Translations under genes and position numbers: made by a program
Shown: one piece after another, positions 1-16,052 of the stretch
Layout: every line of letters begins with the position of its first letter
How positions within the stretch are numbered: the stretch's first letter is position 1
From: Planctomycetota bacterium
GTDB lineage: Bacteria; Planctomycetota; JAJSAM01
NCBI GenBank assembly: GCA_024274785.1
Contig: JAJSAM010000071.1
Span: forward strand, 1 to 64,000
Length of the DNA stretch: 64,000 nucleotides
Reading direction: 5' to 3'
The notes under the pieces: model-generated
The model's input: the letters and a program-made list of their open reading frames with translations, nothing else
Database searches by the model: none
Told to the model about the DNA's origin: nothing

Positions 1-109
1 CCGGGGCGTTCGCGCTGGGCTGAGCGATTGGTAGTGAGCGGACGTGCCTTGAAGTGACCTGAAGTGCCTGTTCTTTGACAAGTGAAACTAAGAAATGAAG
101 TACGCCAGC

Positions 110-167
110 CGGCCCGTGGCGGGCGGGACGAGGGGGAGATCCCTCTGAACGCCCGCTTACCGGGCCG
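110..167. other. Nested three-tier hairpin, candidate structured RNA
   Basis: Three perfect stems sit inside one another. CGGCCCG (110-116) pairs with CGGGCCG (161-167), GCGGGCG (119-125) with CGCCCGC (150-156), and GAGGG (130-134) with CCCTC (141-145). They are separated by short internal loops. The structure lies about 60 nt downstream of the gspK stop and has no T-tract on either strand, so it is not a classical terminator. Function unknown. Nothing else recognisable was seen in 1-227. Confidence 0.45.
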
Positions 168-227
168 CGGATGGCGGGTGCAGCGGTGCTCTCGGTGCAA
201 CTGGCGCACCTATTCCCAGACGAGCCC

Positions 228-1358
228 TTACTCGTCCTCTTCCCTGGTGCCATTGAAGATCGGGTCGGTCCGCTGCTCGGCGAGGAGCGTTGTGAAACCC
301 CTGGGGTTCCTCCGGATGATCCAGCGCTCCTGGCGGGTCAGGCAGTTTGATGCTTTGGCGGTGATGTGGATCGAGAAGGTGTTGCTGCTCCCGGTGATGA
401 TGGCCTGGGTCAGGTTGTTGCGCTGCATGGCCTGCACATCGAAGCCCTCGATCTCCAGGAGGTCCTGCACCGTGCTCACCGCGTTGTTTTTCGGTTCGGC
501 GTCGATCGGAGCCTTGTCGTTCTGCTTCTCCGCCTCGGCCTGGCGCCACTCGACAATGCGGTCGGCCAGGTCGCTGTCCTGGCTCGCAAAAATGGCGTAG
601 AGCAGAGGCAATTCCGCGGTGTTGACGTTGATAGGGCCTTCCGACCAGAGCGTCAGGTAGCGGTAGAGTCCTGGGATCGCATCATCGTCCGCGTCTTCAC
701 CGGGCTGGTCGTAGAACATCTCCCGGGTGAAGCCCTTGATCATGAGAAGTTCGTCGGGGGTCACCAGTATTCGCTTGTCGTCGCCCGTGGCGGGAACCGG
801 GAAGTTGCGATCGCTGTCTTTTCGGGCAAACCAGCCCTTCAGGTTCTTCAAGAGCGATTCCGCGTTGCTGCGGGAGATGGAGAGCTTGCCACTGTCCTCG
901 CGGTAGAGGGTCAGGAGTCGAAGGAAGATCTCTTCCCACTGCGCCCGGAGGTCATCGTCATCGGTGACCAGGTTGTGGAGGTTGAACTTCCGGGCCTCAT
1001 CCTCGATGCGGCCATTGAGTTCCACTGCCTCACTGGTGACCGGCGCCTCTGGATCCCGCTCGTCGTCCTTGGCGGGGGCCTTCTGGAACTGGGTGAACTT
1101 GTCTTCGTTCCAGCGGTCGTCCAGGGCCTCGACGTCGTTCTCGGACTTGTCGTAGAGCAGGACCTGCTTGACCACCTCGAGCTGTCCGCGGATCGCCTGG
1201 CGCATGAGGAAGTCGTCGCGCTTGTTCTGGGCCAGGCGCATGTGCAGGGCGGCGGTAGCCTTGATCTCGAGAGCGAGCACCGCAACAAGCATGAACACGA
1301 TGAGGACGATGAGGAGGGCGATGCCCCGCTCGCTGCGATGTTTGCTGGTGTGGATCAT
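228..1358 (-). CDS. gspK: Type II secretion system minor pseudopilin GspK
   Basis: 376 residues. The N-terminus has a short basic leader and a prepilin peptidase site, ERG followed by IALLIVLIV, which starts a long hydrophobic helix. The Glu usual at mature position 5 is absent, as is typical of GspK. The middle has the GspK hallmark NGRIEDEARKFNLHNLV, and later the helix-hairpin-helix-like INVNTAELPLLYAIF. GspK caps the pseudopilus tip with GspI and GspJ in the inner membrane and periplasm. The ATG at 1358 is preceded by GGAGAGA. It lies 40 bp after the FG-GAP gene at 1399-2886 on the same strand and is probably co-transcribed with it. No other gsp gene is visible, so the rest of the system would lie to the left or elsewhere. 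Confidence 0.88.
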   Translation of the reverse strand: MIHTSKHRSERGIALLIVLIVFMLVAVLALEIKATAALHMRLAQNKRDDFLMRQAIRGQLEVVKQVLLYDKSENDVEALDDRWNEDKFTQFQKAPAKDDERDPEAPVTSEAVELNGRIEDEARKFNLHNLVTDDDDLRAQWEEIFLRLLTLYREDSGKLSISRSNAESLLKNLKGWFARKDSDRNFPVPATGDDKRILVTPDELLMIKGFTREMFYDQPGEDADDDAIPGLYRYLTLWSEGPINVNTAELPLLYAIFASQDSDLADRIVEWRQAEAEKQNDKAPIDAEPKNNAVSTVQDLLEIEGFDVQAMQRNNLTQAIITGSSNTFSIHITAKASNCLTRQERWIIRRNPRGFTTLLAEQRTDPIFNGTREEDE

Positions 1359-1398
1359 GGCTCTCTCCAGACCATCATAGGACGCAGAATGCCGGGGT

Positions 1399-2886
1399 CT
1401 ATTCCTGCTCTTCCGCTGTCGAGAGCAGGACGATCAGCGAATCCCCCTTGCGGTCCGTGCTCCGGCAGATGATCGAGAGGTCGAGCCGGCCGTCGCCGTT
1501 CAGGTCGCGCACTACCGTACCGAGGTTCTCGAACGCCTCCGTATCCGGGATCGTCACGACACGGGCGGCAGAGTCGGCGAACACCTCTTCCGCCTGGCCG
1601 GAAAAAAAAAGGATCTCTTCGCTGCCGGAGCGGTAGACGAGATCCTTGCGACCATCGCCGTTGAAGTCCCCCTGGACATCCACCAGCACCGAGTGCGCGG
1701 CGCGGATACTTCCAGTGAGATCCACGAAGAGCCGCATCTTCACCCGCAGATCCCGAGCCTCATCCGGCTCTTTCGCGAAGGGGCGATCGGCATTACCCGT
1801 GTTCAGGAAGATGTGATTGGTCACCGTCAGCGCGCCGGTCATCATCACCGACATTGCGGTCGATACCCCGATCTCCGGCGTGCAGGGCACGATCAGGTCG
1901 AGCTTCCGGTCGCCATTCAGGTCCGCCAGGTTCGGAGAGAATGCCCACCCCGGCAGCTTGATGCGAAGCGGCGGGTCGGCGAGGGGCTTCCCGAACAGGT
2001 GGATGTCCGTGATCCCCTCCTTGCGCCGCGTGATGAGGAAGTCCAGCAGGCCGTCGGCGTTCACGTCGGCGAGCTTGAACCGCGGGATCCTGCCGTCGGC
2101 CCCGGCGAGTTCGGTGAGATCGACGATGGGGTTGGGCTGCTCACTGAAGCCACGCTCTCCCATCGCCGCATGGATGAGGAAACTGCGACCATCAACGACG
2201 GCGAAGTCCGGGCGGCCGTCTCCGGTGAAGTCGCGGGCAATGTACTCCGGCACCCCGATGCGGCCTTCGAAGCCGCCGAGCACCCCCGGTTTCACGGTGA
2301 GCTTGCTGATCAGGCGAATGGGAATGACCTGGTCCGGCTCGGCGGGCCACTGCCCCGGTAGCCCCTTCGCGCTCTTTCGCTGGAAGTAGAGCGCAAAGCC
2401 GGAAACCGTCGGCAGCACGACATCGAAGAGTCCGTCCCCGTCGAGATCGTGGAGGAAGTCACGTCGCTTCAGGTTCTCCGTTTCAGGGCCGATGACGAGG
2501 CTCTTCGCGGGGATGATCAGCCGGCTCGTGGTTTCGAAGGTCTCCGGAAGGAATGTGACGGCGACGATCCCCTCCGGCGTCACCACCACGAGTTCGAGGG
2601 TTTTCGGGTCGGCGTCCACGCTGCCGAGATCGAAGAAGAGGGCTTCCTGCGGGAGGTTGACGATCACTGGTGCTGCCGGGGCGTAGCTGCCCTCTTCGGT
2701 CAGGGCGTAAAGCCGGATTCGATGGCCGGAGAAACGGAGAATCTCCACTTTTCCGTTGCCGGTCAGGTCCGCGAAGTCGGTCCGGGTGACGCGTCCCTGT
2801 GCGCCGAAATCGATCACCGCAAAAGGCCCGGGGTCACCTCCCGAGGCGAGCAGCAGGGGCAGCATGATCAGGAGCCGGAGCATCAT
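1399..2886 (-). CDS. Secreted FG-GAP/VCBS repeat protein (paralogue 1)
   Basis: 495 residues. A signal peptide (MMLRLLIMLPLLLASGG) is followed by about eight FG-GAP-like units with calcium-loop cores, such as DLDGDGLFD, DFTGDGRPD, DVNADGLLD, DFNGDGRKD and DLNGDGRLD. These are expected to form a seven- or eight-bladed integrin-alpha-like beta-propeller. The ATG at 2886 overlaps the stop of the preceding gene as ATGA, which fixes the start; the frame stays open further upstream but that part lies inside the neighbour. It is one of four consecutive paralogues of similar size and design. No enzymatic motif is visible. A surface or periplasmic calcium-dependent binding role is inferred only from the fold. 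Confidence 0.8.
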   Translation of the reverse strand: MMLRLLIMLPLLLASGGDPGPFAVIDFGAQGRVTRTDFADLTGNGKVEILRFSGHRIRLYALTEEGSYAPAAPVIVNLPQEALFFDLGSVDADPKTLELVVVTPEGIVAVTFLPETFETTSRLIIPAKSLVIGPETENLKRRDFLHDLDGDGLFDVVLPTVSGFALYFQRKSAKGLPGQWPAEPDQVIPIRLISKLTVKPGVLGGFEGRIGVPEYIARDFTGDGRPDFAVVDGRSFLIHAAMGERGFSEQPNPIVDLTELAGADGRIPRFKLADVNADGLLDFLITRRKEGITDIHLFGKPLADPPLRIKLPGWAFSPNLADLNGDRKLDLIVPCTPEIGVSTAMSVMMTGALTVTNHIFLNTGNADRPFAKEPDEARDLRVKMRLFVDLTGSIRAAHSVLVDVQGDFNGDGRKDLVYRSGSEEILFFSGQAEEVFADSAARVVTIPDTEAFENLGTVVRDLNGDGRLDLSIICRSTDRKGDSLIVLLSTAEEQE

Positions 2887-4367
2887 CGCCGGCACCTGAC
2901 GAGATAGATCCTGCTCTGGTCGTGCGCCACCAGGTCCGAGGTGCCGTCGCCGTCGAGGTCCTGGATCACCACGTCGTTCTTCACCGTGGCGCGGGCCTTG
3001 AACAGGGAGTCGTTGAAAGCGTACCGGGCGCTGCTGAAGAGTCCGGTGTCCGTGGTGCCCTTCAGGATGGAGAGGTGCCCCTGGTCGGCGATGTCGAGCA
3101 GATCCTTCTTTCCGTCGCCATCGAAATCCCCCGAGAAGAAGCAGACCGGCGCGGTGGAGTTTCGCTCGAGTTGATCCATGGGGAACGGTCGGGTTACCTT
3201 GAACCAGGGGTCGTGCTCGAATCTCCGTTGCTTCTTGTCGAAACGGAAGAGCAGGTAGTCCGCCTCGACGCTCTTGCGGATCCTCGATTTCATGTCGAGC
3301 CCGAGGGAAGTCACGAGGAGGTCCAGGTCGCCGTCGCCGTCGTAGTCCGAGAGCAGGGGGTTGATGCTGATCCCTTCGGTCTTGACGAGGTCGGTGGGCG
3401 TGGCCAGCCTTCCCGGTGTCTCCGCTCCCACGATGTGCGGCGAGAGGAAGAGCAGTTGCCGCGAGGTGAACCGTTCGAACAGGCCGACGCTCGATGGGCT
3501 CAGCGTAAGGAGCAGGTCCGCCCGGCCGTCGCGGTCCACGTCGCCGAAGAGAGGCGTCGCGCGTGGTGCCCCGGTGGGGCCCGGCTTGAGGGCGTTCACC
3601 GGGCGAGAGACCTGGAAGAACGACCCGTCCTTCCGCTGAAGCTGGAGGACGAGCACTCCCCGACGCACCGCCGCCAGATCCTTGCGGCCGTCTCCGTCCC
3701 AATCGAGCATGACCGGTCGCGGCACCGTGGTGCTGAGTGTCATGAACCGGTGCGCCGGGGTGTCGAGCACCTGCGTGACCCCCGTGGCGAGCGTGGTCGA
3801 TCCCGCTTTCGCGCGAAGGACGATGTGTACGTTTCCTGAGGGCAGGACGAGTTCATCGATCCCGTCGCCATCGAGGTCCATGGCGGTATCGAGGACCGGA
3901 AAACCGTTCTCCTCCGGGAAGAAGGGGAGTTCCGGGGCCGGGCCGAGCAGTCTCTTTGCAGAGAACCTCGGTGCGCCGGCGCCGGCGGTTCCGGGGACCA
4001 GGTGAAAGGCCATGACACCCTGCTTCCGGTCCACCAGCACGAGCTCTGTTCCGCCGGTCTCGGTCAGGCGCGCCAGGCTCGCGAAGTAGATGTCGCGAAG
4101 ACCGGAATCCGCCGGGCGGAGGATCGCCAGGGGAGGATACGGCCCGGGGCCTTTCGGGCGCGCGTCGAAGATCTGCACCCCCGGTCCGGCGTCGCCCGAG
4201 GTGAAGGCGATAATCTCCGCGATCCCGTCTCCGGTCAGGTCCGCCACGCGAACCTCACGGATCCGGTCTTCGCCGGTCGTGAAGAGGGCGGTCACCAGTT
4301 CCGCGCCGGACGCCGCGGCGTCGGAGAGGAAGAGGACCAGGAAGAGGGCCAACAGCCTTGTGGTCAT
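2883..4367 (-). CDS. Secreted FG-GAP/VCBS repeat protein (paralogue 2)
   Basis: 494 residues from the ATG at 4367, which begins a clear signal peptide (MTTRLLALFLVLFLSDAAAS). The frame is open another 93 codons upstream, but that part has no secretory or repeat features and lies in the intergenic stretch. Seven or more FG-GAP cores follow: DLTGDGIAE, DLDGDGIDE, DWDGDGRKD, DVDRDGRAD, DYDGDGDLD, DFDGDGKKD and DLDGDGTSD. The stop overlaps the start of the next paralogue (ATGA), so the two are translationally coupled. A 565-bp stretch with a repeat copy separates it from paralogue 3, so it may start a second transcript with paralogue 1 and gspK. No Shine-Dalgarno is seen before the ATG. Confidence 0.8.
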   Translation of the reverse strand: MTTRLLALFLVLFLSDAAASGAELVTALFTTGEDRIREVRVADLTGDGIAEIIAFTSGDAGPGVQIFDARPKGPGPYPPLAILRPADSGLRDIYFASLARLTETGGTELVLVDRKQGVMAFHLVPGTAGAGAPRFSAKRLLGPAPELPFFPEENGFPVLDTAMDLDGDGIDELVLPSGNVHIVLRAKAGSTTLATGVTQVLDTPAHRFMTLSTTVPRPVMLDWDGDGRKDLAAVRRGVLVLQLQRKDGSFFQVSRPVNALKPGPTGAPRATPLFGDVDRDGRADLLLTLSPSSVGLFERFTSRQLLFLSPHIVGAETPGRLATPTDLVKTEGISINPLLSDYDGDGDLDLLVTSLGLDMKSRIRKSVEADYLLFRFDKKQRRFEHDPWFKVTRPFPMDQLERNSTAPVCFFSGDFDGDGKKDLLDIADQGHLSILKGTTDTGLFSSARYAFNDSLFKARATVKNDVVIQDLDGDGTSDLVAHDQSRIYLVRCRR

Positions 4368-4780
4368 CCGGATCTGGTATCGGAATAGGGTCGTGCTCGG
4401 GAAACCTGCCGCAGAGCATGATACGGGCGATGGACGTACAGGCAAACCCTCCCGGACCGCCCAAACCGGCGTCTCACTCCCCTTCGCCGGAAGTTCCGCC
4501 CCGGCCGGCGAACCGTCCGCCGGCACGATTGTCCGCAGGAGCCCTCGCCCGGAGGCCGGTCCGGGGCACACGAACGATCGACAACGTATGGAGGCAACTC
4601 TTGCCGAAGTCGCCGCTCCGGTCTTCCTCTCCGGCGGGAAGGGCATCCAGCGGGGCCCGGGATCAGTCCCGAACTTCGCCGCTCGCCAGAACCCGCTCGA
4701 AGGCCGGGATCACCCGGACAAGGCCTTGCTCACCTTCAATCGACTCCCGGGTCGGCAAGAGTGACGATGGCGCTCTCTGC
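4368..4780. other. Intergenic stretch without a recognised gene
   Basis: About 410 bp between the signal-peptide start of FG-GAP paralogue 2 and repeat copy A. Frames are open on both strands, as expected at this GC content, but none has a ribosome binding site, a signal peptide or a recognisable family. It probably holds the promoter of the 4367-228 transcript. A TATTCC / TACCAG stretch lies close before the ATG, but no convincing -35/-10 pair was found. Confidence 0.4.
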
Positions 4781-4889
4781 AGGACTGACGGGCGCGAGGA
4801 GGGCGCACCTGCTGGTTTCAACCGACGAGCAACAAAGCGCAGCGGGATGCAGCGATCCTGGAATGCAGCAGCTCTTTCCAGGCGGGCCC
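4781..4889 (+). repeat. Dispersed inverted-end element, copy A (5' end missing)
   Basis: Shares GGTTTCAACCGACGAGCAAC with copies B and C, followed by the conserved CGGGATGCAGC block and a degenerate right end (GCAGCAGCTCTTTCCAGGCGGGCCC) that resembles the right end of copy C. The left inverted terminus is missing. It lies 43 bp after the stop of FG-GAP paralogue 3. Confidence 0.75.
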
Positions 4890-4932
4890 TCAGCATCCAC
4901 CCGGCGATCGAGATGGCCGGGAGGGGCACTCT

Positions 4933-6627
4933 TCAGCGGGGCGAGTGCAGGTCGAGCACCACGGAGCCCTTCGCCTCCCTGTCTTTGTAGATCACCAGGA
5001 TTTCATCGCGGCCGTCATCGTCGAGATCGCCTGACTCCACCGAGACCACGTCGAAGCGAGATGGGTCACGGAGGGGGATGGTGATATCCGGAGGGCGCCC
5101 GCCGGTCAGACGGTCCACGCGGCGCTTGGCGATGTCACCGAGCCACTCAAGGACGCGGTCGAGCGACCACTCCCGATCCTTCGAATCGAAGAAGAGAGAT
5201 CCCAGTCCGGACGAATCGAGAGCGGCGCGACGCTCGCCGCGGACCTTCCACAGATCCACGCGCATGCCGTCTTCGGAGAGGATGGCCACATCCTCGGATC
5301 CGTCCCCGTCGAAGTCGCCGTCCACCGCCGACCGGAACTTGTTCGTCGTCTCCTCCCACCTCGAGAGCAGCGCTTGCGGGTTCTTCAGCACCTCGCTGAT
5401 GGCCGGCAGCACGATGGCCAGTTCGCCTTTCCACTGCGGGCTGCGCGTGAACTTCGGACCCGGGCGGCCGGCGTAGCCGACTGCGGAGATGACCACTTCG
5501 AACTCGGCAAAGAAGCCCTTGAGAAGTGCCGCCACGTCCGGCACCTCGACGCGAAGCAGGAGCAGGTCCGGGCGGCCATCGCTGTCGAGTGGCAGGACCA
5601 GGAGCGCGGATACATCCTCGGATGTTTTCAGGATGTCGCTCGGTTTCGTGAAAAGAGGACCATCCCGCGTGCCCTTGAAGACCCAGATCTTGCGCCGGTG
5701 GGAAATGACGTAGTCGGGGATGCCGTCCGCGTCGAGATCCTGCATCGAGAGCTTCGCGTGCTTGCTCGAGGCGAGCGTTCGACCCGGGCGAATGTCAGCT
5801 TCGGCGGTCGTATCCCGAAAAAGGTCGAGATCGAGAACGCGATCCGGGTCCCGTGGGAGAGTACCGTCTTCCCGCTGCAGGTGGAAAGCGCGGCCGTCGC
5901 CATCGGCCACGATGAGGTCCACGCGATCATCGCCGTTCACGTCCTCGAAGTGGAGCTTGGGGATACGGAACCGGCTCTCGAGCTGATCGGAGAGGGCCTT
6001 GCCCGCGGTGACCTGGGTGCGTTTGATGTCGGTCCGCACGACGGCTGCTTTCACGAAGTGCGGGAGGCCGGTCTGCTCGTCCTTTCCCTGGTTCAACCAG
6101 AGTTCGAACTCCTCGGCGTGGGGGACGAGCAGGTCCGCCCGGCCGTCGCCGTTCAGGTCGTCTAGGATGTCGGCGAACTGCGGGTGGCCCAAGCGCAGGC
6201 GGAACTTCGGCGCCCGCTTCCGGATGACCGGCCGGCCCTCCGCGACGAAGCCGCCTCCTGGAGCGGGGAGGTAGATCTTCGGCCCGTCGGGGGAGAGGAC
6301 CATGAGCTGGGGGGGACCACCGTCGCCGATGACATCGCCTACCGCCAGCAGCGTGCGATCGGCGTTTCTCAGGTTGAGCGCGCCGGTCAGTTCTCCGGCC
6401 ATCGTTCCCTTTTCGTCCCCGCGGCTCCACACTCGCACCCGGCCTTCTCGATCCACGAAGAGCAGTTCGGCGGTGCCGTCCCCGTCGAGATCGAGGACCC
6501 GGTGCGCGCCGTAGGACAGTCCCGGGGAGAGGGAGACGGTCCCGGTCGCATCCTGGGCCTGCGCGACATTCGTCACCGGGGTCGCGATACACACGAGCAG
6601 CAGCATGAGGCTTCGGATGCTCTTCAT
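4933..6627 (-). CDS. Secreted FG-GAP/VCBS repeat protein (paralogue 3)
   Basis: 564 residues. Signal peptide (MKSIRSLMLLLVCIATPVT, cleavage likely after AQA), then about eight FG-GAP units: DLDGDGTAE, DVIGDGGPP, DLNGDGRAD, DVNGDDRVD, DLDADGIPD, DSDGRPD, DFDGDGSED and DLDDDGRDE. Some loops keep every calcium ligand and others are degenerate. The ATG at 6627 overlaps the upstream paralogue's stop as ATGA. It is the last gene of the tightly coupled block that begins with the ABC exporters at 12.9 kb, and its stop is followed by repeat copy A. Ligand and partner are unknown. Confidence 0.8.
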   Translation of the reverse strand: MKSIRSLMLLLVCIATPVTNVAQAQDATGTVSLSPGLSYGAHRVLDLDGDGTAELLFVDREGRVRVWSRGDEKGTMAGELTGALNLRNADRTLLAVGDVIGDGGPPQLMVLSPDGPKIYLPAPGGGFVAEGRPVIRKRAPKFRLRLGHPQFADILDDLNGDGRADLLVPHAEEFELWLNQGKDEQTGLPHFVKAAVVRTDIKRTQVTAGKALSDQLESRFRIPKLHFEDVNGDDRVDLIVADGDGRAFHLQREDGTLPRDPDRVLDLDLFRDTTAEADIRPGRTLASSKHAKLSMQDLDADGIPDYVISHRRKIWVFKGTRDGPLFTKPSDILKTSEDVSALLVLPLDSDGRPDLLLLRVEVPDVAALLKGFFAEFEVVISAVGYAGRPGPKFTRSPQWKGELAIVLPAISEVLKNPQALLSRWEETTNKFRSAVDGDFDGDGSEDVAILSEDGMRVDLWKVRGERRAALDSSGLGSLFFDSKDREWSLDRVLEWLGDIAKRRVDRLTGGRPPDITIPLRDPSRFDVVSVESGDLDDDGRDEILVIYKDREAKGSVVLDLHSPR

Positions 6628-8219
6628 CGCGCGAACCTCACGTGGTGGACCTCGGCGTTCTCGAGGATCAGCAATTCCGGCCCCCGATCTCCCTTTGCAA
6701 CGAGGACATCGGCACGCTTCGTGACGCGCATTTCAAAGTACGGATCCGAACGGACCATCAGGCCCCGGCTGGTGCGGCGCACGGCGTGGATCCGCACCGT
6801 GGTGGGGTCGTTCCGGAGCAGCAGGTCCGGGTGGCCATCGCCGGTGATGTCACCGATGAATTGGCCCAGATTGCGCTTCTCGGTGTCGCGGAGTCCCTTC
6901 GCCGGGACGTCCAGGTCCATGGCGAGGTCGGGCTGCTTCGAGAACCGGCCCTGGTTGTTCAGATGGACGCGGAGGGACACCGCGAGCTTGCCGCCGCCCG
7001 TCGCGGCCCGGACGGTGTCGATGGCGTCGAGGTCGAAGGTGCGGAAAGTGAGGTCGAGATCCCCGTCCCCGTCCACGTCCACCAGGGCGCCCTTTCCGGC
7101 AAAGCCCTTTACCAGCAGCACCTGGTCCGGCCGGCCCTTCGCGGCAAACAGCGCACCGCGGGTCTGGCGGTAGACCAGGATCTGGGTGCGAATGTCCCGG
7201 GAACGCCGGTCCCCGGCAAAGACGACGCAGTCCACGCGACCGTCGCCGTCGAGGTCTCCGGCGTGTGTGCCGAATGAGAGGTCGAGCCGGCGGCCCTGGT
7301 CTACGGTGACCGGGAACCTGAGCCGCACCGCGGGCACGGAGTTGAAGGTGCCGCTGCCGCTTTGCGGCCAGACGGAGAGCTCGTCGCCGGAGAGCGCCAG
7401 GATGTCGGTTCGACCGTCCGCGTCGTAGTCCTCGAGAACCGGGTACGGTACGGCTTCGGCGACCGAGATCAGCGATTGGTTGCCGAGCTTCTCCGCGCCA
7501 CCCAGAGAGATGGAAAGCTCCAGTTTCCGGAACCGTTCCCGCGCCTGCATGCGCTGGCCGGAACGGGAGGCCGCCACCACCTGGTCGCTCGCGCCCGGGA
7601 GGGAGAGGTTCATCACCCGTCCGAAACCGCGGGTCCCGTCCTCCGCCCTCGTCTGCATCGCCACGCTGTACCCGTTCGGACCAGGCAGGACCAGGTCGGG
7701 CAGGCCGTCGTTGTTCAGATCCGCCACCGCGTCGGTATAGGTGTAGATCTCCCGGGGATGCGGAAGCTGCCACAGGAGCTCGGCCAGGAGAATAGACTCG
7801 GGCGGTTTCTCACCGGCGCCTGCCACCGGGCCGGCGAAGACCTCCCGCGCTCCCATGAAGAGAATCTCCTCGCCCGCCGCACTCGCGACATCAGCGGCGG
7901 CGAAGGCCACATCGCCGGGATCGAACGCGATCTCGGCGGCGGGCTCCGAGCCGAAGCACACCGCGGCATCTCGACGGAGGTGGACCCGGAGTCGGCGGTC
8001 GTAGTTTTTGAAGTAGTTCTGGGAGGCGATGAGCAGATCTCGTTTCCCATCACCGTTCACGTCGGAGAGGATTGCGCCGCGGACGACCAGACCCCGCGGA
8101 ACCTGCACCGTCGTGATAAGGGCCTGCTTCGGGGCGGCGGGCGCGGGGCCGGAGGGCAGCAGGAGCAGGCTGAGCAGGCTGAGCAGGCTGAACAGAAGCG
8201 CGGGAATGATACGTTTCAC
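6624..8219 (-). CDS. Secreted FG-GAP/VCBS repeat protein (paralogue 4)
   Basis: 531 residues from a GTG at 8219 that overlaps the stop of the PDZ lipoprotein gene as GTGA. The frame continues 23 codons upstream, but only the GTG start puts the signal peptide (KRIIPALLFSLLSLLSLLL) at the N-terminus. The leucine stretch is encoded by a short direct repeat (gctgagcag units, 8168-8190). FG-GAP cores include DVNGDGKRD, DLNNDGLPD, DYDADGRTD, DLDGDGRVD, DVDGDGDLD and DITGDGHPD. It overlaps paralogue 3 by ATGA at its 3' end. Confidence 0.8.
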   Translation of the reverse strand: MKRIIPALLFSLLSLLSLLLLPSGPAPAAPKQALITTVQVPRGLVVRGAILSDVNGDGKRDLLIASQNYFKNYDRRLRVHLRRDAAVCFGSEPAAEIAFDPGDVAFAAADVASAAGEEILFMGAREVFAGPVAGAGEKPPESILLAELLWQLPHPREIYTYTDAVADLNNDGLPDLVLPGPNGYSVAMQTRAEDGTRGFGRVMNLSLPGASDQVVAASRSGQRMQARERFRKLELSISLGGAEKLGNQSLISVAEAVPYPVLEDYDADGRTDILALSGDELSVWPQSGSGTFNSVPAVRLRFPVTVDQGRRLDLSFGTHAGDLDGDGRVDCVVFAGDRRSRDIRTQILVYRQTRGALFAAKGRPDQVLLVKGFAGKGALVDVDGDGDLDLTFRTFDLDAIDTVRAATGGGKLAVSLRVHLNNQGRFSKQPDLAMDLDVPAKGLRDTEKRNLGQFIGDITGDGHPDLLLRNDPTTVRIHAVRRTSRGLMVRSDPYFEMRVTKRADVLVAKGDRGPELLILENAEVHHVRFAR

Positions 8220-9199
8220 GGTGCATCCACCTCCTCGAGAAGATCCGCGTCGCCGCCGCCGAAGTGGATCAGCCAGAGCAACTGCCACTGGTATGCGGCG
8301 GGGGTGCTCTCATAGCCGAGCAGGCCGAGCAGCACCGCCCACTCGGTGTCTCCACGGTCCCGTTCGTAGCTGAACAGCACCGGGATGCTGATGCGATGCA
8401 GTTCGCGCTCGCGTTCGGATCGCGCGGTCGTGACCACTCTGGTTTCCCCCCGTCTGAAGTAGGTCACTTCCATGGTGTCGTCCCCTTCGCGCACGGCGTC
8501 GAGGATCACCTGGGGATGAGAGACGGTGGCTCCATTCAGGCGAACGATCAGGTCGCCGAAGAGCAGCCCCGCCTGTCGCCAGGGGCTTCGCTCCGACATT
8601 CCGATCAGGACCGCCCCGGCCCCGGGGCCCATGCCCGCGGAGCGAGCCTCCGCTTCGGTGGCGGTGCGCAGGATCACGCCGATATGGTCCGCTTCCCGAT
8701 AGCGCTCCACCTTCCGGCGCCTGCGAGGATGCACCCGGGGGACGGGCGCGATGCGTGTCTCACCTTCGAGTCCGGCGCGGTCGTAGATGACGTGGATTTC
8801 GGTGCCGGGTTTCGTCTCGATCTCGAGTTCATTCCATTGGCTCGGGTAGAAGATCTCCTCCTCGGTTCCATCTGCCCTGACCACCGCGATCAGGATGTCG
8901 TCGGCGGCGATGCCCGCGGCGTCGGCGGGGGAGTTCTCGACCACACCGGTTACCGGTAGTCCGGGTTCCGGTTCCTCACCCCGGCGTCGGCGGGGCGGTG
9001 ATCCGAGGTCGATGCCGGTGAAGACGCCGTAGTCGAGGGCGAGCCGGGCTTCCTCGTCCATCGGCTCCTCGGCGTCGGCGAGTGAGATCTCCATGTCGGC
9101 GAGCGGCGGCGCCTCATCCGGCAGGCTACGGGGGACGAGGGAGTTGCACCCCCCGGCGAGGAGCAGCAGGCAGATCGGCAGCAGACGGCTTCGGATCAT
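8216..9199 (-). CDS. Lipoprotein with two PDZ domains
   Basis: 327 residues from the ATG at 9199, which overlaps the ABC gene's stop (ATGA). The N-terminus is a lipoprotein signal with lipobox LLAGGC (Cys18), then an acidic linker. Two PDZ-like domains follow: about residues 80-150 (VVENSPADAAGIAADDILIAV) and 165-265 (ERSPWRQAGLLFGDLIVRLNG). No protease domain is attached, so this is probably a peptide-binding scaffold anchored to the inner or outer membrane. Position +2 after the Cys is Asn, not Asp, so outer-membrane sorting is possible. Its place between an exporter and the FG-GAP proteins suggests a shared envelope function. Confidence 0.72.
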   Translation of the reverse strand: MIRSRLLPICLLLLAGGCNSLVPRSLPDEAPPLADMEISLADAEEPMDEEARLALDYGVFTGIDLGSPPRRRRGEEPEPGLPVTGVVENSPADAAGIAADDILIAVVRADGTEEEIFYPSQWNELEIETKPGTEIHVIYDRAGLEGETRIAPVPRVHPRRRRKVERYREADHIGVILRTATEAEARSAGMGPGAGAVLIGMSERSPWRQAGLLFGDLIVRLNGATVSHPQVILDAVREGDDTMEVTYFRRGETRVVTTARSERERELHRISIPVLFSYERDRGDTEWAVLLGLLGYESTPAAYQWQLLWLIHFGGGDADLLEEVDAP

Positions 9200-11037
9200 G
9201 GGACCGACCTCCTCTTCAGCAGCATCGTAGCGAACACCGCGGCCAGGACGAGCCAGACCGCGGGAACGAGGATGGACCCGTCGAGCATCCCTCCCGGCGG
9301 GCTGTTCGGGGCGCGGATCAGGTCGAGAACGTGGGCGACGCGCGAGGTGTCTCCGAGTGGAGAGGGAGCGTAGCAGGAAAGCAGTCCGCCCTCGAAGCCG
9401 AACGAGCGGCCGGCAACGCGGAAGATGTCGAGGAAGACGACGGAGCCCGCCGCGAGGGCGAGTGCGGTGACGCCGCGTTTCACCAGCGCGCCCGCCAGAA
9501 AGCCGACGGCGGTGTAAGCGAGCAACGGCAGGATCATGGCCGAGAGCATCGAGGAAAACGGTGACCAGAGCGCCGCCGCCTCGGTGATGACCCACGGATC
9601 GGCGTTGTCGGTCTCGAGAATTTCCACCACATCGGTGAAGTCGAAGGCCATTCCGGAGACCACGACCGCGACCGTGGCCAGCAGCAGGTAGCAGACGATC
9701 GCCGCCGAGAGCACGCCGAGGAGTTTCCCGATGGCCAGGCCGGCCCGGCCCACCGGACGCAGCAGCAGATTGCGAAGCGTCCCGCGGGAGAACTCACCGG
9801 CCAGACTCTGGCTGGCGAGACCCGCCAGGATCAGCGCCGCCACGGGGAGGGCATCGCCAAGGCCCACCGTGGTTCCTTCGAAGGCGGTGACGAGCGTGTG
9901 GCTGAAAACGTCGCCGGCCGAGACGTCTTCGATGTGCCCCCGGGCTTCGCTCCACAACCGCAGCACCGAGAGCCCGGCGACCAGGGCCGGGATGGCGATG
10001 GCGATCGCCGCGGAAGGGTGGGAGAGGAGCCGGCGGACCTCCGAGGCGTACGCCTTCAGCACCGGTCGAGGCGGTGCCCGCTTTTCCGCCGGAGCAGGGA
10101 GAACTTCGATCGGCGCCGTCTCCCGTTTCGTGGCGTTTTCCCCCCGGGAGTACCGGAGGTAGATCTCCTCCAGGCTCGTGGTGCGCGGAGACAGTTCGAG
10201 GATGGTGAGATCGTTGCCGGTGACGAGTCGGGAGAGCTCTCGCGTGTCGGTCGTCGCGACGACCACGCCTCCGGCCGGTTCCTCGTGCGCGTCGAGCCCG
10301 GCGTCCGCCATGAGTAAAAGCGCGCGGGGGTTGTCGTCTGTTCGGAGCAACACCCGGCCTCCGCCCTCCTCGAGGAGTTCGGTTGTCTCCGCTTCCACGA
10401 GCATCCGGCCCTGCTTGAGGATGCCGATTCGGTTGCACACCCCGGCGACTTCGTGCAACTGGTGGCTCGAGAGGATCACGGTGCGGCCCTCTTCCCGGGT
10501 CAGGGTGAGGAGCATCCGCCGGAACTCCTCGATGCCCTCGGGGTCCAGGCCGTTCGCCGGCTCGTCGAGCAGAACGCAGGCCGGATCGCCGAGGAGCGCC
10601 TGTGCGATCCCGAGGCGCTGGCGCATGCCCTGGGAGTAGCCGGCGACCTTGCGCGTGGCGGCGTGGGTGAGTCCCACCAGTTCGAGCAGGCGGTCGCATT
10701 CCTTCTGCGTCGCCTTTCGGCTCTGCCCCCCGAGTCGCCCCAGGAGATAGAGGTTCCGGCGGCCGGAGAGCCAGCCATAGAAGCCGGGTCGCTCGATCAG
10801 GCCCCCCTGCCGGGCGCGCGCCTCCCGGGGATGGCGGGCCTGGTCGAAACCATCCACCAGCACGCGGCCGGAGTCGGCTCGGATCAGGCCGAGGGCGATA
10901 CGGAGGGCGGTGGTCTTCCCGGCGCCGTTGTGGCCGAGAAAGCCGTAGCAATCCCCGGGGCGGACGTGCAGGGACACCCCGTCGAGGGCCGTGTGCGAAC
11001 CGTACCGGCGTGTGATGCTCTCCAGTCTGAGTGCCAC
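9196..11037 (-). CDS. Fused ABC-2 exporter: ATPase plus permease in one chain
   Basis: 613 residues. Residues 1 to about 310 are an ABC ATPase: Walker A GHNGAGKTT, signature YSQGMRQRLGIA, Walker B CVLLDEP, and a switch histidine in SSHQLHE. Residues from about 330 to 613 form a hydrophobic ABC-2-type permease with about six membrane segments, beginning VRRLLSHPSAAIAIAIP. The GTG at 11037 is chosen because AGGAG lies 6 nt before it and the family's usual start follows directly; the open frame continues upstream without such support. It lies 38 bp after the split ABC pair. It may export a lipid, drug or peptide, but the substrate cannot be told. Confidence 0.82.
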   Translation of the reverse strand: MALRLESITRRYGSHTALDGVSLHVRPGDCYGFLGHNGAGKTTALRIALGLIRADSGRVLVDGFDQARHPREARARQGGLIERPGFYGWLSGRRNLYLLGRLGGQSRKATQKECDRLLELVGLTHAATRKVAGYSQGMRQRLGIAQALLGDPACVLLDEPANGLDPEGIEEFRRMLLTLTREEGRTVILSSHQLHEVAGVCNRIGILKQGRMLVEAETTELLEEGGGRVLLRTDDNPRALLLMADAGLDAHEEPAGGVVVATTDTRELSRLVTGNDLTILELSPRTTSLEEIYLRYSRGENATKRETAPIEVLPAPAEKRAPPRPVLKAYASEVRRLLSHPSAAIAIAIPALVAGLSVLRLWSEARGHIEDVSAGDVFSHTLVTAFEGTTVGLGDALPVAALILAGLASQSLAGEFSRGTLRNLLLRPVGRAGLAIGKLLGVLSAAIVCYLLLATVAVVVSGMAFDFTDVVEILETDNADPWVITEAAALWSPFSSMLSAMILPLLAYTAVGFLAGALVKRGVTALALAAGSVVFLDIFRVAGRSFGFEGGLLSCYAPSPLGDTSRVAHVLDLIRAPNSPPGGMLDGSILVPAVWLVLAAVFATMLLKRRSVP

Positions 11038-11075
11038 CCCTGTCTCCTGCCTGCGTACACGCACGTCCACAGTCT

Positions 11076-11999
11076 CTACGAGTGAATGTCCCTGCGCCGG
11101 AAGACGAATCCCGCGGCGATCAGGAACAACAAAGCCGTGCCGACGGGCACCACGATCGCGGGAAGAACCCAGTCCAGGCGGAGGCCGAAGTCGGAGTGGC
11201 CGAGTGCCAGCGACTCGAGCACCCTTACCGGGCGGTCCACCCACGAGAGGAAGTTGAGCGCGGAGGCCTGGCCGATCAGGACGAGATCCAGGAAGAACAG
11301 AACCAGCCCGAGCAGCACCGCCGACGTCACCGCGGTGGCGGAATTGTCACAGAGCACCGAGAGGAAGAGCCCGAAGCACGCGATCGCGAAGAGCGCGAGC
11401 GGTGCGACCGCCAGCACGAGCAGGCTGACCTTCGTCAGTTGGCCGGCGGTGTAGTCGATCGTGCCGTATTCCGCGTCGAGTACGTCCCCGTAGCCGCCGG
11501 TGAGCAGTCCCGCGAGCCAGCCGGTGATCGCGACGACCAGCACGAGCACGATGGAGGTCAGCAGCAGCGTCGCGGCCCGGCCGATCAGCAGGTCGGTCCT
11601 CGAGAGGGGCCTCGTGAGCAGTAGTCGCAACGTGCCGCCGGTAGCCTCGCCGGAGATCCCCACCGCGGAGAAGGTGAGTAGCAGGATCGCCGCCAGGATC
11701 AGTCCGGCCCGGCCCGAGGAGGCCAGGACGAAGTACCCGTTGACGCCGCGCTCTTCCGTGGCGACGGGACTGGGCGCGGGCTCTTCGCCGAAGGTGTGTG
11801 TGACCGTGGCCGGGGCCGTCGGGCTCTGGCTCTCGCGCTCGGTTGCGTAGTCGAGTGGACCGACCAGCGCCGCGGCGAGCACCAGCAGGACGATGTAGGT
11901 GAGCAGGATCGGGCGCCGGCTGGCTTTCCGCATCTCCGATCGCATCGCCCGGACGAGCCGGGTGCCGCGCGAGGGGACGGGGTGCGGATCAGCGCCCAA
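11076..11999 (-). CDS. ABC-2 type transporter permease
   Basis: 307 residues with an N-terminal basic segment (RSEMRKASRRP), a first membrane helix, a periplasmic loop (about residues 55-90), and then four or five more helices. It includes the ABC-2 signature-like region GISGEATGGTLRLLLTRPLSR. The TTG at 11999 is supported by AAGGAGG ending 6 nt upstream, inside the end of the ATPase gene, with which it overlaps by 11 bp. An ATG at 11945 is the alternative. It should pair with the ATPase at 11989-12909. The adjacent fused exporter looks like a duplicated, joined version of the same system. Confidence 0.8.
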   Translation of the reverse strand: MGADPHPVPSRGTRLVRAMRSEMRKASRRPILLTYIVLLVLAAALVGPLDYATERESQSPTAPATVTHTFGEEPAPSPVATEERGVNGYFVLASSGRAGLILAAILLLTFSAVGISGEATGGTLRLLLTRPLSRTDLLIGRAATLLLTSIVLVLVVAITGWLAGLLTGGYGDVLDAEYGTIDYTAGQLTKVSLLVLAVAPLALFAIACFGLFLSVLCDNSATAVTSAVLLGLVLFFLDLVLIGQASALNFLSWVDRPVRVLESLALGHSDFGLRLDWVLPAIVVPVGTALLFLIAAGFVFRRRDIHS

Positions 12000-12909
12000 G
12001 ATCGGCCTCCTTCTCGCTCGTGATCTGGAGGAACCACTCGTTCAGGCTCCGGCGGACCGGAATGATCTCGTGGACGGCGACCTCCGCGGCGAGTAGTTCA
12101 GCGAGCAGGCCGGGGATCTCGCCGGTTCCGGCCCGGATCCGGAGCCTCTTGCCCTGCTCGTCCGTCACGCGATCGCCGAGCACGGCGCGCGCCGTCTCCC
12201 GGTCCGCCACCAGGAGCAGGTGATGGGTGACCTCGCCGGCCACGATCTCTTCGATCGGCCCGGCGGTGAGCAGCCGCCCCCGGCGCAGGATGGCCACGTG
12301 GTCGGCGATGCTCTCCAGTTCGTCGAGTTGGTGGGAGAGGATGAGAAACGTCGTGCCGCGTTCGCGGTTGAACCTGCGGATCATCGAAAGCACTTCCCGC
12401 ACGCCGTGAGGATCGAGCCCGTTGGTCGGTTCGTCGAGGATCACCAGGTCCGGCTCACCGAGCAGCGCCTGTGCGATCCCCAGGCGTTGGCGCATGCCCT
12501 GCGACCAGCCCCGGACGGGTTCATCCGCCGGCTCCGCCAGGCCTACCGCGTCGAGAGCGGCGTCGATCCGGTCCGGATCGTCCATACCGGAGAGAGTCCC
12601 GAGTACCCGCAGATTGCCGCGGCCGGAGAGGTGGGGGTAGAACCGCGGGATCTCGACCATCGCGCCGATGCGGCTCCGCGCGGCGATGGCGCCCCCGGGC
12701 ATCGACAGCCCGAACAGGCGGACCGAACCCGCGGTGGCTCGGATCAGTCCGAGGGCGATCCGGACGAGCGTGGTCTTGCCGGCGCCGTTCGGCCCGAGCA
12801 GCCCGTAGATGCTCCCCGCGGTAACGGAGAAGCTGACCGCGTCGAGCGCGTTTCTTCTTCCGTAACGACGGGTCAGGCCGGAAACCTCGAGTATCTCCGC
12901 GGCAGGCAT
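11989..12909 (-). CDS. ABC-2 transporter ATP-binding protein
   Basis: 306 residues. Walker A GPNGAGKTT, signature WSQGMRQRLGIA, Walker B LVILDEP, then NGLDPHG and LSHQLDE, as in ABC-A-type exporters (CcmA/NatA-like). The last 80 residues form a C-terminal regulatory region. ATG at 12909; the frame is open 14 codons further, but no ribosome binding site supports that. There is no Shine-Dalgarno before 12909 either; instead TACAAT lies 6 nt upstream. This is the first gene of a block running to 4933 (exporter, permease, fused exporter, PDZ lipoprotein and two FG-GAP proteins). Confidence 0.85.
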   Translation of the reverse strand: MPAAEILEVSGLTRRYGRRNALDAVSFSVTAGSIYGLLGPNGAGKTTLVRIALGLIRATAGSVRLFGLSMPGGAIAARSRIGAMVEIPRFYPHLSGRGNLRVLGTLSGMDDPDRIDAALDAVGLAEPADEPVRGWSQGMRQRLGIAQALLGEPDLVILDEPTNGLDPHGVREVLSMIRRFNRERGTTFLILSHQLDELESIADHVAILRRGRLLTAGPIEEIVAGEVTHHLLLVADRETARAVLGDRVTDEQGKRLRIRAGTGEIPGLLAELLAAEVAVHEIIPVRRSLNEWFLQITSEKEADLGR

Positions 12910-12915
12910 CTGAGG

Positions 12916-12921
12916 ATTGTA
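12916..12921 (-). promoter_or_regulatory. Candidate -10 box (leaderless) of the ABC/FG-GAP block
   Basis: TACAAT on the minus strand, separated from the ATG at 12909 by 6 nt, which would place the transcription start at the A of the ATG. No good -35 lies at 17 nt; a TTGACC is present but at a 24-nt spacing. Confidence 0.4.
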
Positions 12922-13004
12922 GCCGCCCCGACAGATTTCCCTAGGGGTCAAGGGGTTTCGTCTTCTTCAATCGGATTCGCGACATGTGGTGTGAGGGACC
13001 CGCT

Positions 13005-13577
13005 TTGAACCTTCCCAATATCCTGACGATGGCTCGTCTCGCCCTGGCGCCCGTGTTCGTGTTCTTCTTCACGCAGGGGTCTCCGGAGTCGAGGTGGGGG
13101 TACGCCGGCGCGCTCGTCGTCGCTCTCGTGTCCGAGTTTACCGATTTCTTCGACGGCATCATCGCGCGGCGCACCGGGCAGGTCACCGACTTCGGGAAGT
13201 TTGTCGATCCGCTGGCGGACTCCGTTTCCCGGTTCACGGTGTTCCTCTGCCTGCTCCACCTCTACCCTTCCCTGATCTGGGCGGTGGTGATCCTGTTCTG
13301 GCGGGACAGCCTGGTCTCCACGCTCCGGATCATGGGCGCGACCAAGGGGATCATCATCAGCGCCCGCTGGTCGGGGAAGATCAAGGCCTGGGTGCAGGCG
13401 ATCGCGGCGATCACGATCATCGTCTTCCTGGTCTGGCCGAATCTCTTCGGGCTGGGGGAGGAGAACATCGAGATCGTGGCGCAGATCCTGATGGGCATCA
13501 CCGCCGTCTACACCGCCTACAGCCTGGTCGATTACCTCTGGGGCAACCGCAAGCTCATCGCTTCGCTGGATCGGTGA
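13005..13577 (+). CDS. pgsA: CDP-alcohol phosphatidyltransferase, probably phosphatidylglycerophosphate synthase
   Basis: 190 residues with six predicted membrane helices. The full CDP-alcohol phosphotransferase motif D-x2-DG-x2-AR-x8-G-x3-D-x3-D is intact (DFFDGIIARR through KFVDPLADS, around residues 45-70). The start NLPNILTMARLALAP is typical of PgsA, which makes phosphatidylglycerophosphate from CDP-diacylglycerol and glycerol-3-phosphate in the inner membrane. A TTG at 13005 with GAGGG 7 nt upstream is preferred. An ATG at 12984 would add seven residues without a ribosome binding site. Other enzymes of the superfamily (phosphatidylserine or phosphoinositol synthases) share the motif, so the substrate is inferred. 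Its 3' end overlaps the convergent glycosyltransferase by 23 bp. Confidence 0.8.
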   Translation: MNLPNILTMARLALAPVFVFFFTQGSPESRWGYAGALVVALVSEFTDFFDGIIARRTGQVTDFGKFVDPLADSVSRFTVFLCLLHLYPSLIWAVVILFWRDSLVSTLRIMGATKGIIISARWSGKIKAWVQAIAAITIIVFLVWPNLFGLGEENIEIVAQILMGITAVYTAYSLVDYLWGNRKLIASLDR

Positions 13578-14967
13578 GCCGGAACGCCGCGGCATTGTTC
13601 AGCACGTAGCTTCCGGTGATGCGCAGGGCCTTCTTCGCCAGGTCGAGTGTCCTGGCGTCCTCCTGGTCGCAGGTGCGGATGACCAGCCAGAAGGAACGGG
13701 GTTCCCGGCCAAGGCGCTCCCGGATCAGGGCGGGCAAGTCCTCCACCGTCTCACGGGAAGGGAGCAGGACGATAGCCGCGTCCCGGACGGCCGGACGGGT
13801 GTATCCGTAGTGCCTGACTGCGTTGCGGTGGAACGGATCCACCACGATGGGTTCCCCGGGCTCGATCTTCGCGGCCAGGTACCCGATGGCACCACGCCAG
13901 TCTTCCTTCTGCTTCTCGACGTGCAGCCACAACGAACCGGGAAGCATGGTGGCGATCAACACGGCGGCGGCGAGTTTCGGGCGGGGAAGGGCCGTGGCGC
14001 CCCTTGCCCCGAGCAGCAGGATCGGGGGGATGATGGGGATCAGCGTCCGGGCGAGAAAGAGCGGCCGCACCGTGCTGATCGCCAGTTCGGCCACGACCGG
14101 CACGGCGAGCAGCAGCAGGCAGATCCGGACCGCCGGGCGATCCCGGGATCGCATCGCCCCGAAGGCCACGGCCGAGACCAAGATCACTCCCAGCACCACC
14201 GCCGGCACGATCGGCCACGACCACGGATATCGTCCGAGCACCGTGAGTCCACCGAGGGCCGCGGCGACGGAGGTCCAGGTGGGAGGGTGGATCCAGTAGT
14301 TGCCCATCACATGGTCGAAACCCGCCCGCGCGGCGAGGATCCAGGGCAGGAACATCGCGAAAGCGATCGCACCGGCCAGGATCGCACCGCGCCGCACCGC
14401 GCCGCCTTCGAGAAAGGCGGCGAGCAGAAGGGCGGCGACGAAGAGGCCGCCCATGTACTGGGTGTAGAGCATTCCGGAGAGAGCCAGACCGAAGACGATG
14501 GCTCGCGCGCGGGAGGGACGGCTGCGCAGTCCGAGGAACGCGAGCGTGGCGAGGAGCGACAGGAAGAGCAGGAGCGAGTAGTACCGCGCGTCCCGTGAGG
14601 CGTGAACGGCGAAGGGGGACATCGCGAGCAGCGCCGCCGCGACGAGGCCGACCCGTTCATCGAAGAGCCGGCGGCCGACGGCGAAGATCAGCGGGATCGA
14701 GAGGATGCCGAAGATGGCCGAGGGCGCCCGCAGCCCCCCATCGATGGAGAACACCCTCGGGAACGGCCACTGCAGCAAGTGGAACAGTGGAGGGTGGTTG
14801 TCCTCGGCGATCAGGCGGCGGATCACGTCCGCCGGTGAACCGGAAACGAGGTAGCTGCTCCAGATCTCGTCGATCCAGAGGCTCTCGAAGGAGAGGTCGA
14901 CCAGGCGCAGCAGAGCCCCCGCGATCGTCGCGGCACCAAGCGCCAGTGCGACGATGCGGGGGCTCAA
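13555..14967 (-). CDS. GT39/ArnT-like membrane glycosyltransferase
   Basis: 470 residues with about ten membrane helices. The first periplasmic loop has the acidic pair expected for polyprenyl-phosphate-sugar-dependent transferases (LWIDEIWSSYL), followed by NHPPLFHLLQWPF, close to the HPPL motif of the GT39/PMT_2 family. The C-terminal 100 residues are a soluble tail. Such enzymes move sugars from a lipid carrier to proteins or lipids on the periplasmic face. The TTG start at 14967 is supported by GGAGG 5 nt upstream. It lies 20 bp after the beta-barrel gene and is probably co-transcribed. Acceptor unknown. Confidence 0.78.
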   Translation of the reverse strand: MSPRIVALALGAATIAGALLRLVDLSFESLWIDEIWSSYLVSGSPADVIRRLIAEDNHPPLFHLLQWPFPRVFSIDGGLRAPSAIFGILSIPLIFAVGRRLFDERVGLVAAALLAMSPFAVHASRDARYYSLLLFLSLLATLAFLGLRSRPSRARAIVFGLALSGMLYTQYMGGLFVAALLLAAFLEGGAVRRGAILAGAIAFAMFLPWILAARAGFDHVMGNYWIHPPTWTSVAAALGGLTVLGRYPWSWPIVPAVVLGVILVSAVAFGAMRSRDRPAVRICLLLLAVPVVAELAISTVRPLFLARTLIPIIPPILLLGARGATALPRPKLAAAVLIATMLPGSLWLHVEKQKEDWRGAIGYLAAKIEPGEPIVVDPFHRNAVRHYGYTRPAVRDAAIVLLPSRETVEDLPALIRERLGREPRSFWLVIRTCDQEDARTLDLAKKALRITGSYVLNNAAAFRLTDPAKR

Positions 14968-14987
14968 GACGACCTCCGGACTTCGCG

Positions 14988-16052
14988 CTAGAACTTGATC
15001 GCGAGGGTGACGAGGAGATTCGTGTCCGTCTCTTTCGTCGGGGCGACCACGGTGGTGTCGTAGTTGACCAGGAACGAGATCCTGAGGAACAGCGACTCGC
15101 TCAGCGGCTGCTCGAGCACGGTCTCCGAGACGATGCGGCCGTCCGGGGAGTTCGTGATCGAGGGGTACCAGAAGATGTTCTGGATCAGCCTGGCCTCATC
15201 GAAGACCTGCACTTCGGCCTTGACCGCGACGAAGAGCTCGAAGGTCCACTCGTTGTCGGCGTTGTCCCAGCTCGTGTACGTCAGCGTGGGACCGGCTTCG
15301 GCGCGCAGCTTCCACGCGTCGTCGTCATTGACGATATAGCCGATACCGGGGGTCATCGCACCGCGGAAGTTGATGTCCTTGAACTCGTCCCGCGAGAGGA
15401 CGGCCAATCCGAAGAAGTACCACTTGGGGGAGAACTTGATGTCGTGCTGGACGGCCAGGATCTGTCGGTTCGCCGACCGGACCTTGTCATCCTCGGTGTA
15501 GATGATGCCAAGGCGCAGCCCGGTCCTGGTGTAGTCGGTCTCGCGGTCGAGGGTCAGGCCGAAGACGAGGCCCAGGCGTTCGGTGTTGCCGGTCTGCCAG
15601 TTGAATCCGAGCTCCGCCTGGCCTTCCCAGAGGGGCTCCACGACTTCGTCGATGGCGGTGTCGACCGCATCCGGAGCCTGTACCGGGATCTCCGGGTAGG
15701 CGAGGTCACGCGGGGCCGGGAGCATGCCGTGGACATCCGCCAGCGGTGCGCTGACCGTGCCGGCGTCGTTCGTGATCTTCAGGTTGCCCTTGCCATCGGT
15801 CTTCACTTCTCCGGTGACCCGGTCCCCGGAGGCGAGGACGACCGTGAACACCCCATCGGTCTCGATCGAGGTTACGGCCGAGAGCGGAACGCGGACGACG
15901 CCGATGAGTTCGTTCCGGATGACGAGCAGCTTGCCCTCGGTGCGGAGGATGTCGCCACTGACCTGGTCCCCGTTCTCGAGGACGACGGTTGCCGCGGACG
16001 CCGCGCCGGCGAAGAGAATCAGGAGCGCAGCGATGCTGATTGCGAGTCTCAT
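14988..16052 (-). CDS. DUF481-like outer-membrane beta-barrel protein
   Basis: 354 residues. Signal peptide ending AGAASA, then a domain of about 100 residues with two copies of a small beta unit (VVLENGDQVSGDIL and VVLASGDRVTGEVK). Residues from about 135 to the end resemble DUF481/YdiY: alternating amphipathic strands (ELGFNWQTGNTERLGLVFGL), ending in Phe as outer-membrane barrels do. GAGAGGG precedes the ATG at 16052. A transport or stress role is possible but not shown. It is the first gene of a pair with the GT39-like enzyme. Confidence 0.75.
   Translation of the reverse strand: MRLAISIAALLILFAGAASAATVVLENGDQVSGDILRTEGKLLVIRNELIGVVRVPLSAVTSIETDGVFTVVLASGDRVTGEVKTDGKGNLKITNDAGTVSAPLADVHGMLPAPRDLAYPEIPVQAPDAVDTAIDEVVEPLWEGQAELGFNWQTGNTERLGLVFGLTLDRETDYTRTGLRLGIIYTEDDKVRSANRQILAVQHDIKFSPKWYFFGLAVLSRDEFKDINFRGAMTPGIGYIVNDDDAWKLRAEAGPTLTYTSWDNADNEWTFELFVAVKAEVQVFDEARLIQNIFWYPSITNSPDGRIVSETVLEQPLSESLFLRISFLVNYDTTVVAPTKETDTNLLVTLAIKF

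Follow-up and report, generated by a model that had tools for sequence, protein, structure and literature searches.

Why should four secreted FG-GAP propeller proteins be encoded together with two ABC (ATP-binding cassette) exporters, a PDZ lipoprotein and a minor pseudopilin of the type II secretion system (T2SS)? This question is raised by a gene cluster at positions 228-12909 of a planctomycete contig (JAJSAM010000071.1, assembly GCA_024274785.1), whose first 64,000 nucleotides, the whole stretch that was analysed, are referred to here as the window. The original prediction took the cluster for one linked system. The link of the propellers to exporters and to the pseudopilin gene gspK by gene order was borne out, but a single system of four tandem paralogues was ruled out by a propeller tree that splits by position. 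Instead, the cluster contains two homologous two-propeller cassettes, module 1 and module 2, which in most genomes stand apart or singly.

All nine genes lie on the minus strand in open frames with a third-position GC of 0.81-0.90 and a codon composition of the coding type, confirming the predicted co-directional set. Module 2 begins with atp1, an ABC ATPase of 306 aa (11989-12909, ATG start), and perm1, an ABC-2 permease of 307 aa (11076-11999, TTG start), which overlap by 11 bp. Module 1 sits between this exporter and propC. It consists of ABCfus, a fused ATPase-permease exporter of 624 aa (9196-11070), which is spaced 5 bp from perm1 with a GTG start at 11070 and 38 bp with the later GTG at 11037; the two-PDZ lipoprotein (8216-9199, 327 aa); and the secreted FG-GAP propellers propA (position 1; 6624-8219, 531 aa, start refined to GTG at 8219) and propB (position 2; 4933-6627, 564 aa). 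Beyond a 565-bp gap between two transcription blocks (4368-4932), module 2 continues with the secreted FG-GAP propellers propC (position 1; 2883-4367, 494 aa) and propD (position 2; 1399-2886, 495 aa) and ends with gspK (228-1358, 376 aa). Overlaps of 4 bp are found at ABCfus/PDZ, PDZ/propA, propA/propB and propC/propD, and propD and gspK are 40 bp apart; the predicted tight packing from 12909 to 4933, with every junction overlapping or within 38 bp, agrees with these coordinates. The source genome is a 4.54-Mb draft in 83 contigs, and the region 3' of gspK is outside view because the contig begins at window base 1. Promoter and terminator scans of the cluster were uninformative. A weak sigma-70-like site at 4445-4418, inside the gap, carries no weight because two such sites were found in 1-13100 against 0.8 expected.

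Gene order of the two cassettes in other genomes

Because FG-GAP proteins are too common to serve as a search tag, the PDZ lipoprotein was used to trace module 1. It was matched in 11 of 59 relatives, and the order ABCfus-PDZ-propA-propB is found with differing flanks in G004, G005, G006, G008 and G024 (G, L and f codes are our working labels for genomes, loci and families, not taxon names); the module 1 neighbourhoods of G001, G002 and G007 are interrupted by contig ends. A scan of GTDB contigs (one genome per species, about 85,000 species) gave zero matches with a single PDZ sequence and succeeded when repeated with an alignment, yielding 56 loci. Forty-two of these are strong matches (E up to 8e-24) from planctomycetes, including records titled 'bacterium isolate 3_bin.21' and 'Candidatus Kuenenia'. 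Among the 42, propA is found no more than 700 bp behind the PDZ gene at all 37 loci with room, and PDZ-propA-propB is present at all 34 loci having at least 3.6 kb downstream; module 1 paralogues are therefore not found alone in relatives. An ABC gene lies within 700 bp upstream of the PDZ gene at 32 of the 36 loci having at least 2.5 kb upstream, the exceptions being L054, L055, L086 (where other open reading frames, ORFs, intervene) and L087. The ATPase and permease of module 1 are separate genes in f28, f53 and f73, with the order unchanged. By profile search, the PDZ orthologue (E up to 1e-45) occurs in 32 of 392 genomes of the phylum, from 12 families, and the scores jump from 9e-46 to 1.5e-32, where generic PDZ proteins begin. 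Module 1 is also present in the complete genome of the named strain Pla86 (L070). At L054, on a contig filed as Candidatus Kuenenia stuttgartiensis, module 1 has a gap of 2.9 kb behind the exporter; the species label probably results from an error in binning or labelling.

Module 2, surveyed in Planctomycetota through gspK, has the order ATPase-permease-propC-propD-gspK, with the exporter sometimes missing. The gspK profile matched 176 of the 392 genomes, and 51 neighbourhoods were inspected: 9 of the own order of the source genome, 2 of f28 and 40 others, the last taken from 165 matching genomes nearly in score order, so that weak gspK genes were left out. In 24 of the 51, spread over seven families, gspK is immediately preceded by propellers: f60 (11/12), f16 (5/5), f1 (3/3), f28 (2/2) and single loci of f6, f35 and f36, with none in the remaining families. 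This count includes L114 (G162), where the profile finds one propeller 1.6 kb before gspK, and treats L124, at a contig edge, as propeller-free. An ABC ATPase or permease profile match is also present upstream in 15 of the 24 (the window, L041, L112, L115, L116, L118, L119, L125, L128, L129, L132, L134, L135, L137 and L140), and several others end at contig ends. Thus the gene-order search found a fixed module 1 in 12 families and the gene set of module 2 in seven, and the predicted linkage to a pseudopilin recurs, for module 2 only. The gene after gspK varies: tpiA in f1, f28 and f36, topoisomerase VI in f60, a HATPase protein in f16 and a glycosyltransferase 9 gene in f35. Genes of the T2SS itself are found nearby in a few genomes, with a secretin two genes upstream of module 2 in G033 and another near it in G021, and T2SSF-domain genes adjoining the module 2 ABC genes in G021 and G134.

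Some variants of these loci were also observed. In those of the f60 loci L112-L123 that were scanned with Pfam (L115, L116, L119 and L123), the B and A subunits of topoisomerase VI come directly after gspK. L116 of this family has an extra HEAT-repeat-like gene between permease and propC (14563-15489), and a gap of similar size is found in L112 and L118. At four f25 loci (L138, L141, L143 and L144), propellers are absent and a PDZ protein stands immediately before gspK; the L138 protein contains two PDZ repeats and bears a signal peptide. This PDZ-gspK pairing is possibly a third combination of the same parts.

The nesting of module 1 inside module 2 was not found in the two sister genomes, G001 and G002. 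G001 has atp1-perm1-propC-propD-gspK, perm1 being directly followed by propC, and carries module 1 on a separate contig beside hutH; in G002, the gene after propC-propD-gspK is aroF, and propB of module 1 is followed by other genes. In G003-G008 (loci L042-L047), gspK adjoins pgsA without propellers, so the propeller-gspK link is missing from six of the eight other genomes of the own order. The window retains a pgsA-like gene, the old partner of gspK in this order, as a divergent neighbour outside the cassettes (12984-13577, plus strand). Near the cluster, 13555-14967 encodes a glycosyltransferase-like membrane protein with a weak Agl23 match, and in the two f28 genomes similar genes immediately precede propC. 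Mutual exclusion of the two modules was considered and rejected: among the 51 genomes whose gspK neighbourhood was inspected, 6 have both, 11 module 1 only, 18 module 2 only and 16 neither, and about 8 with both would be expected (hand count).

The source genome is rich in FG-GAP proteins, with 72 FG-GAP_3 repeat matches, and so many copies might come to lie beside exporters by chance. Nine other FG-GAP_3 regions of the genome served as a control. The profiles for ABC ATPase, permease and GspK matched none of them, and against the propeller profiles of the cassettes no ORF there exceeds 28 bits. The linkage to exporters is thus a property of this propeller subfamily. Together with a gene order fixed over 12 families (module 1) and seven (module 2), these controls lead us to reject chance clustering as extremely improbable. 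In one such region of the genome (L153, 1065-5478), a weakly PDZ-matching ORF runs into an FG-GAP ORF of 996 aa, with no ABC match.

Propellers, exporters and their partner proteins

The four predicted FG-GAP paralogues all score above the FG-GAP_3 (PF13517) cut-off (propA 77.8, propB 87.9, propC 98 and propD 93.7 bits). The AlphaFold model of propB (pLDDT 82.8) has strands throughout and two helical inserts, and its Foldseek matches are known propellers, namely ITFG2, PVL lectin, CRTAC1, Tc toxin B subunits and Bap1, with E-values of 1e-10 to 1e-7, yet TM scores of only 0.2-0.3 of the query. In a 29-row alignment of propB, Asp and Gly residues of DxDGDG loops make up many of the invariant columns, a pattern expected of Ca2+ sites, so that these propellers may bind calcium. 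In a maximum-likelihood tree of 74 propellers (unrooted; the module 1 rows of the first tree were thinned to 19 loci), one branch (96/80) parts position 1 of both modules from position 2, and propA groups with propC and propB with propD. Module 1 position 1 forms one group (99/98) and module 1 position 2 another (100/99); resolution is lower for the module 2 groups. The exception is L114, whose single detected propeller was labelled position 2 and is placed with position 1. Since the propellers split by position, both cassettes appear to descend from one exporter-propeller-propeller unit. The simplest reading of these sequences would be that one ancestral unit was duplicated, after which the PDZ gene joined one copy and gspK the other.

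All four propellers have signal peptides. They could be ordinary cargo, propC and propD being T2SS substrates while the exporters would serve the same process, for example surface coat assembly, by moving a glycan or lipid. PVL-type lectins and Bap1 among the fold matches of propB would suit this view, as would the glycosyltransferase gene adjoining the cluster both in the window and in f28. It also accords with the frequent placement of T2SS cargo genes close to gsp genes. But cargo has no need of a conserved, ordered pair with an exporter, the module 1 loci carry the same pair without gspK (34/34), and GspK is a structural tip protein rather than a cargo gene product. We consider the cargo explanation a somewhat improbable one.

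Of the two exporters predicted, both contain ABC_tran and ABC-2 membrane domains, and the second is refined to one fused ATPase-permease protein. atp1 matches PF00005 (99.4 bits), and its PDB matches by phmmer are ABCA-type ATPases and NosF (1.9e-44); perm1 matches PF12679 (54.9 bits) and, weakly, the GldF family TIGR03518 (22.3 bits, cut-off 288.5). ABCfus combines PF00005 (89.3 bits) with ABC2_membrane families, and in its AlphaFold model (pLDDT 90.1) about six long helices of membrane type come after the ATPase. One of the best full-length structural matches of ABCfus is NosF, with 294 of 299 residues aligned (Z 29.6, 37% identity), level with several other ABC ATPases. Along its whole length, ABCfus also matches ABCG and ABCA half-transporters. 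NosY chains were absent among the 50 matches listed, which says nothing either way. In a tree of the ATPases made by a quick method, most module 1 rows group together, as do most module 2 rows; the row labelled 'out' (L054) is the module 1 locus with the gap.

The partner proteins of the two cassettes are different. In module 1, the predicted two-PDZ protein has two stretches of PF13180, and a Cys follows the signal segment in all eight aligned rows that hold the N-terminus. Its PDB relatives are PDZ domains of the DegP/DegQ type, without the protease part. The last 60 columns of its alignment include a conserved hydrophobic C-terminal tail (LLWLISFGGGDADRLEEV type) outside both PDZ domains, the role of which is unexplained. 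In module 2, the assignment of a T2SS pseudopilin holds, with both T2SSK domains above their cut-offs: PF21687 at 36.5 bits (cut-off 26.2) and PF03934 at 26.8 bits (cut-off 24.2). It falls short of the NCBIfam equivalog NF037980 (103.7 against 130 bits), and is therefore a divergent GspK. This gspK is the sole match in the source genome at E≤1e-5, and the aligned residues after the conserved Gly lack Glu at position 5 of the mature protein.

A possible role for the cassettes

NosDFY, FtsEX and MacB are ABC machines that drive a periplasmic partner, and NosF-NosY is thought to act on NosD, a beta-helix, through an ATP-driven step. The cassettes resemble NosDFY in having a full-length NosF-like ATPase, though many other ABC ATPases match too, and ABC genes beside secreted beta-structured proteins; module 1 also has a lipoprotein (compare NosL). 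They differ in having two FG-GAP propellers instead of one NosD, and in module 1 the ATPase and permease are fused; no nosZ or nosL was found in the stretches read. GldA and, weakly, GldF are among the best-matching named families, but they lie far under the curated cut-offs (168 against 402.6 and 22.3 against 288.5 bits). The likeness to the T2SS consists of GspK by Pfam and of secretins elsewhere in the genome (4 matches), whereas no other gsp genes are adjacent in the window. To our knowledge, T2SS operons contain neither ABC-2 exporters nor FG-GAP pairs.

Another parallel is PilY1, a secreted propeller that binds the PilX tip and whose gene accompanies that of this tip pilin; the authors of PMC7541494 liken PilY1 to a T2SS substrate, and GspK and PilX both lack Glu5 (PMC7541494). 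As in the PilY1-PilX/PilW/FimU system, a secreted propeller gene here stands beside a tip pilin gene lacking Glu5. The differences are that the cassettes encode FG-GAP rather than PilC-type propellers, two of them, with an ABC exporter and with one pilin-like gene adjacent. An exporter-driven pair that would serve the pseudopilus tip is favoured over other roles. Specifically, a NosDFY-like ABC machine with a propeller pair, serving GspK in module 2 and the PDZ lipoprotein in module 1, is the reading that we find most plausible by analogy, with slightly less than an even chance of being correct.

The signal peptides make it unlikely that the exporter carries the propellers across the inner membrane. 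In the reading that we favour, propA with propB and propC with propD would form obligate periplasmic pairs, docked on the exporter or handled by it, and its ATP cycle would drive a conformational or hand-over step instead of transporting propellers already exported by Sec. In module 2, GspK would link the pair to the pseudopilus tip of the T2SS, with the pair acting as a tip or priming partner, as PilY1 does on PilX, or being a dedicated cargo. For module 1, the receiver in place of GspK may be the PDZ lipoprotein, which would hold the pair or its client at a membrane. What the sequences show is gene order and descent; docking, energy use, calcium binding and contact with GspK are predictions.

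Several findings weigh against it. gspK is never part of module 1, and 27 of the 51 gspK neighbourhoods, including six genomes of the own order, have no propellers. In the f28 genomes, propC-propD-gspK has no ABC genes directly upstream. The Neisseria_PilC domain (PF05567), which characterises PilY1, was not matched in propA-D (Pfam, E≤0.01). perm1 has no PDB sequence match, the likeness to NosF is common to many ABC ATPases (1vpl, 4yer, ABCA), and the ATPase tree does not firmly join the exporters of module 1 and module 2. Some of these observations would suit an FtsEX- or MacB-like signalling switch for an envelope process, in which the propellers would be Ca2+-dependent sensors with no link to secretion and gspK a mere neighbour. 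Such a switch would explain the neighbourhoods without propellers, where gspK retains its old neighbours pgsA, tpiA and yicC, and a module 1 that works without gspK; but propD adjoins gspK in seven families with differing flanks, and module 2 has T2SS secretin or T2SSF-domain genes in its vicinity in f16 and f28. We regard it as unlikely.

The broader formulation, that of an undescribed planctomycete envelope machine in which an ABC-2 motor acts on a Ca2+-binding propeller heteropair, duplicated early, for GspK or for a PDZ lipoprotein, is possible, if on the doubtful side. The less specific suggestion of a dedicated envelope or secretion function, made in the original prediction, fits the sequence data. 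The prediction that no described system has this gene set also holds for the open-access full-text library searched, where searches on FG-GAP, ABC transporter, PDZ, pseudopilin, T2SS and secretin in Planctomycetes found no such cluster described.

Overall, the pair of homologous cassettes is real, conserved and so far undescribed, while each of its parts resembles known machines. The fixed gene order in 12 families for module 1 and seven for module 2 indicates that the cassette is selected as a unit. The planctomycete envelope is unusual and its secretion machinery is poorly known. If GspK and the propellers are functionally linked, type II secretion would have new accessories in the form of an ABC motor and a propeller pair; and if the reading of an ABC-2 motor acting on a propeller heteropair is true, planctomycetes would have a secretion apparatus that is partly powered or primed by an ABC machine.

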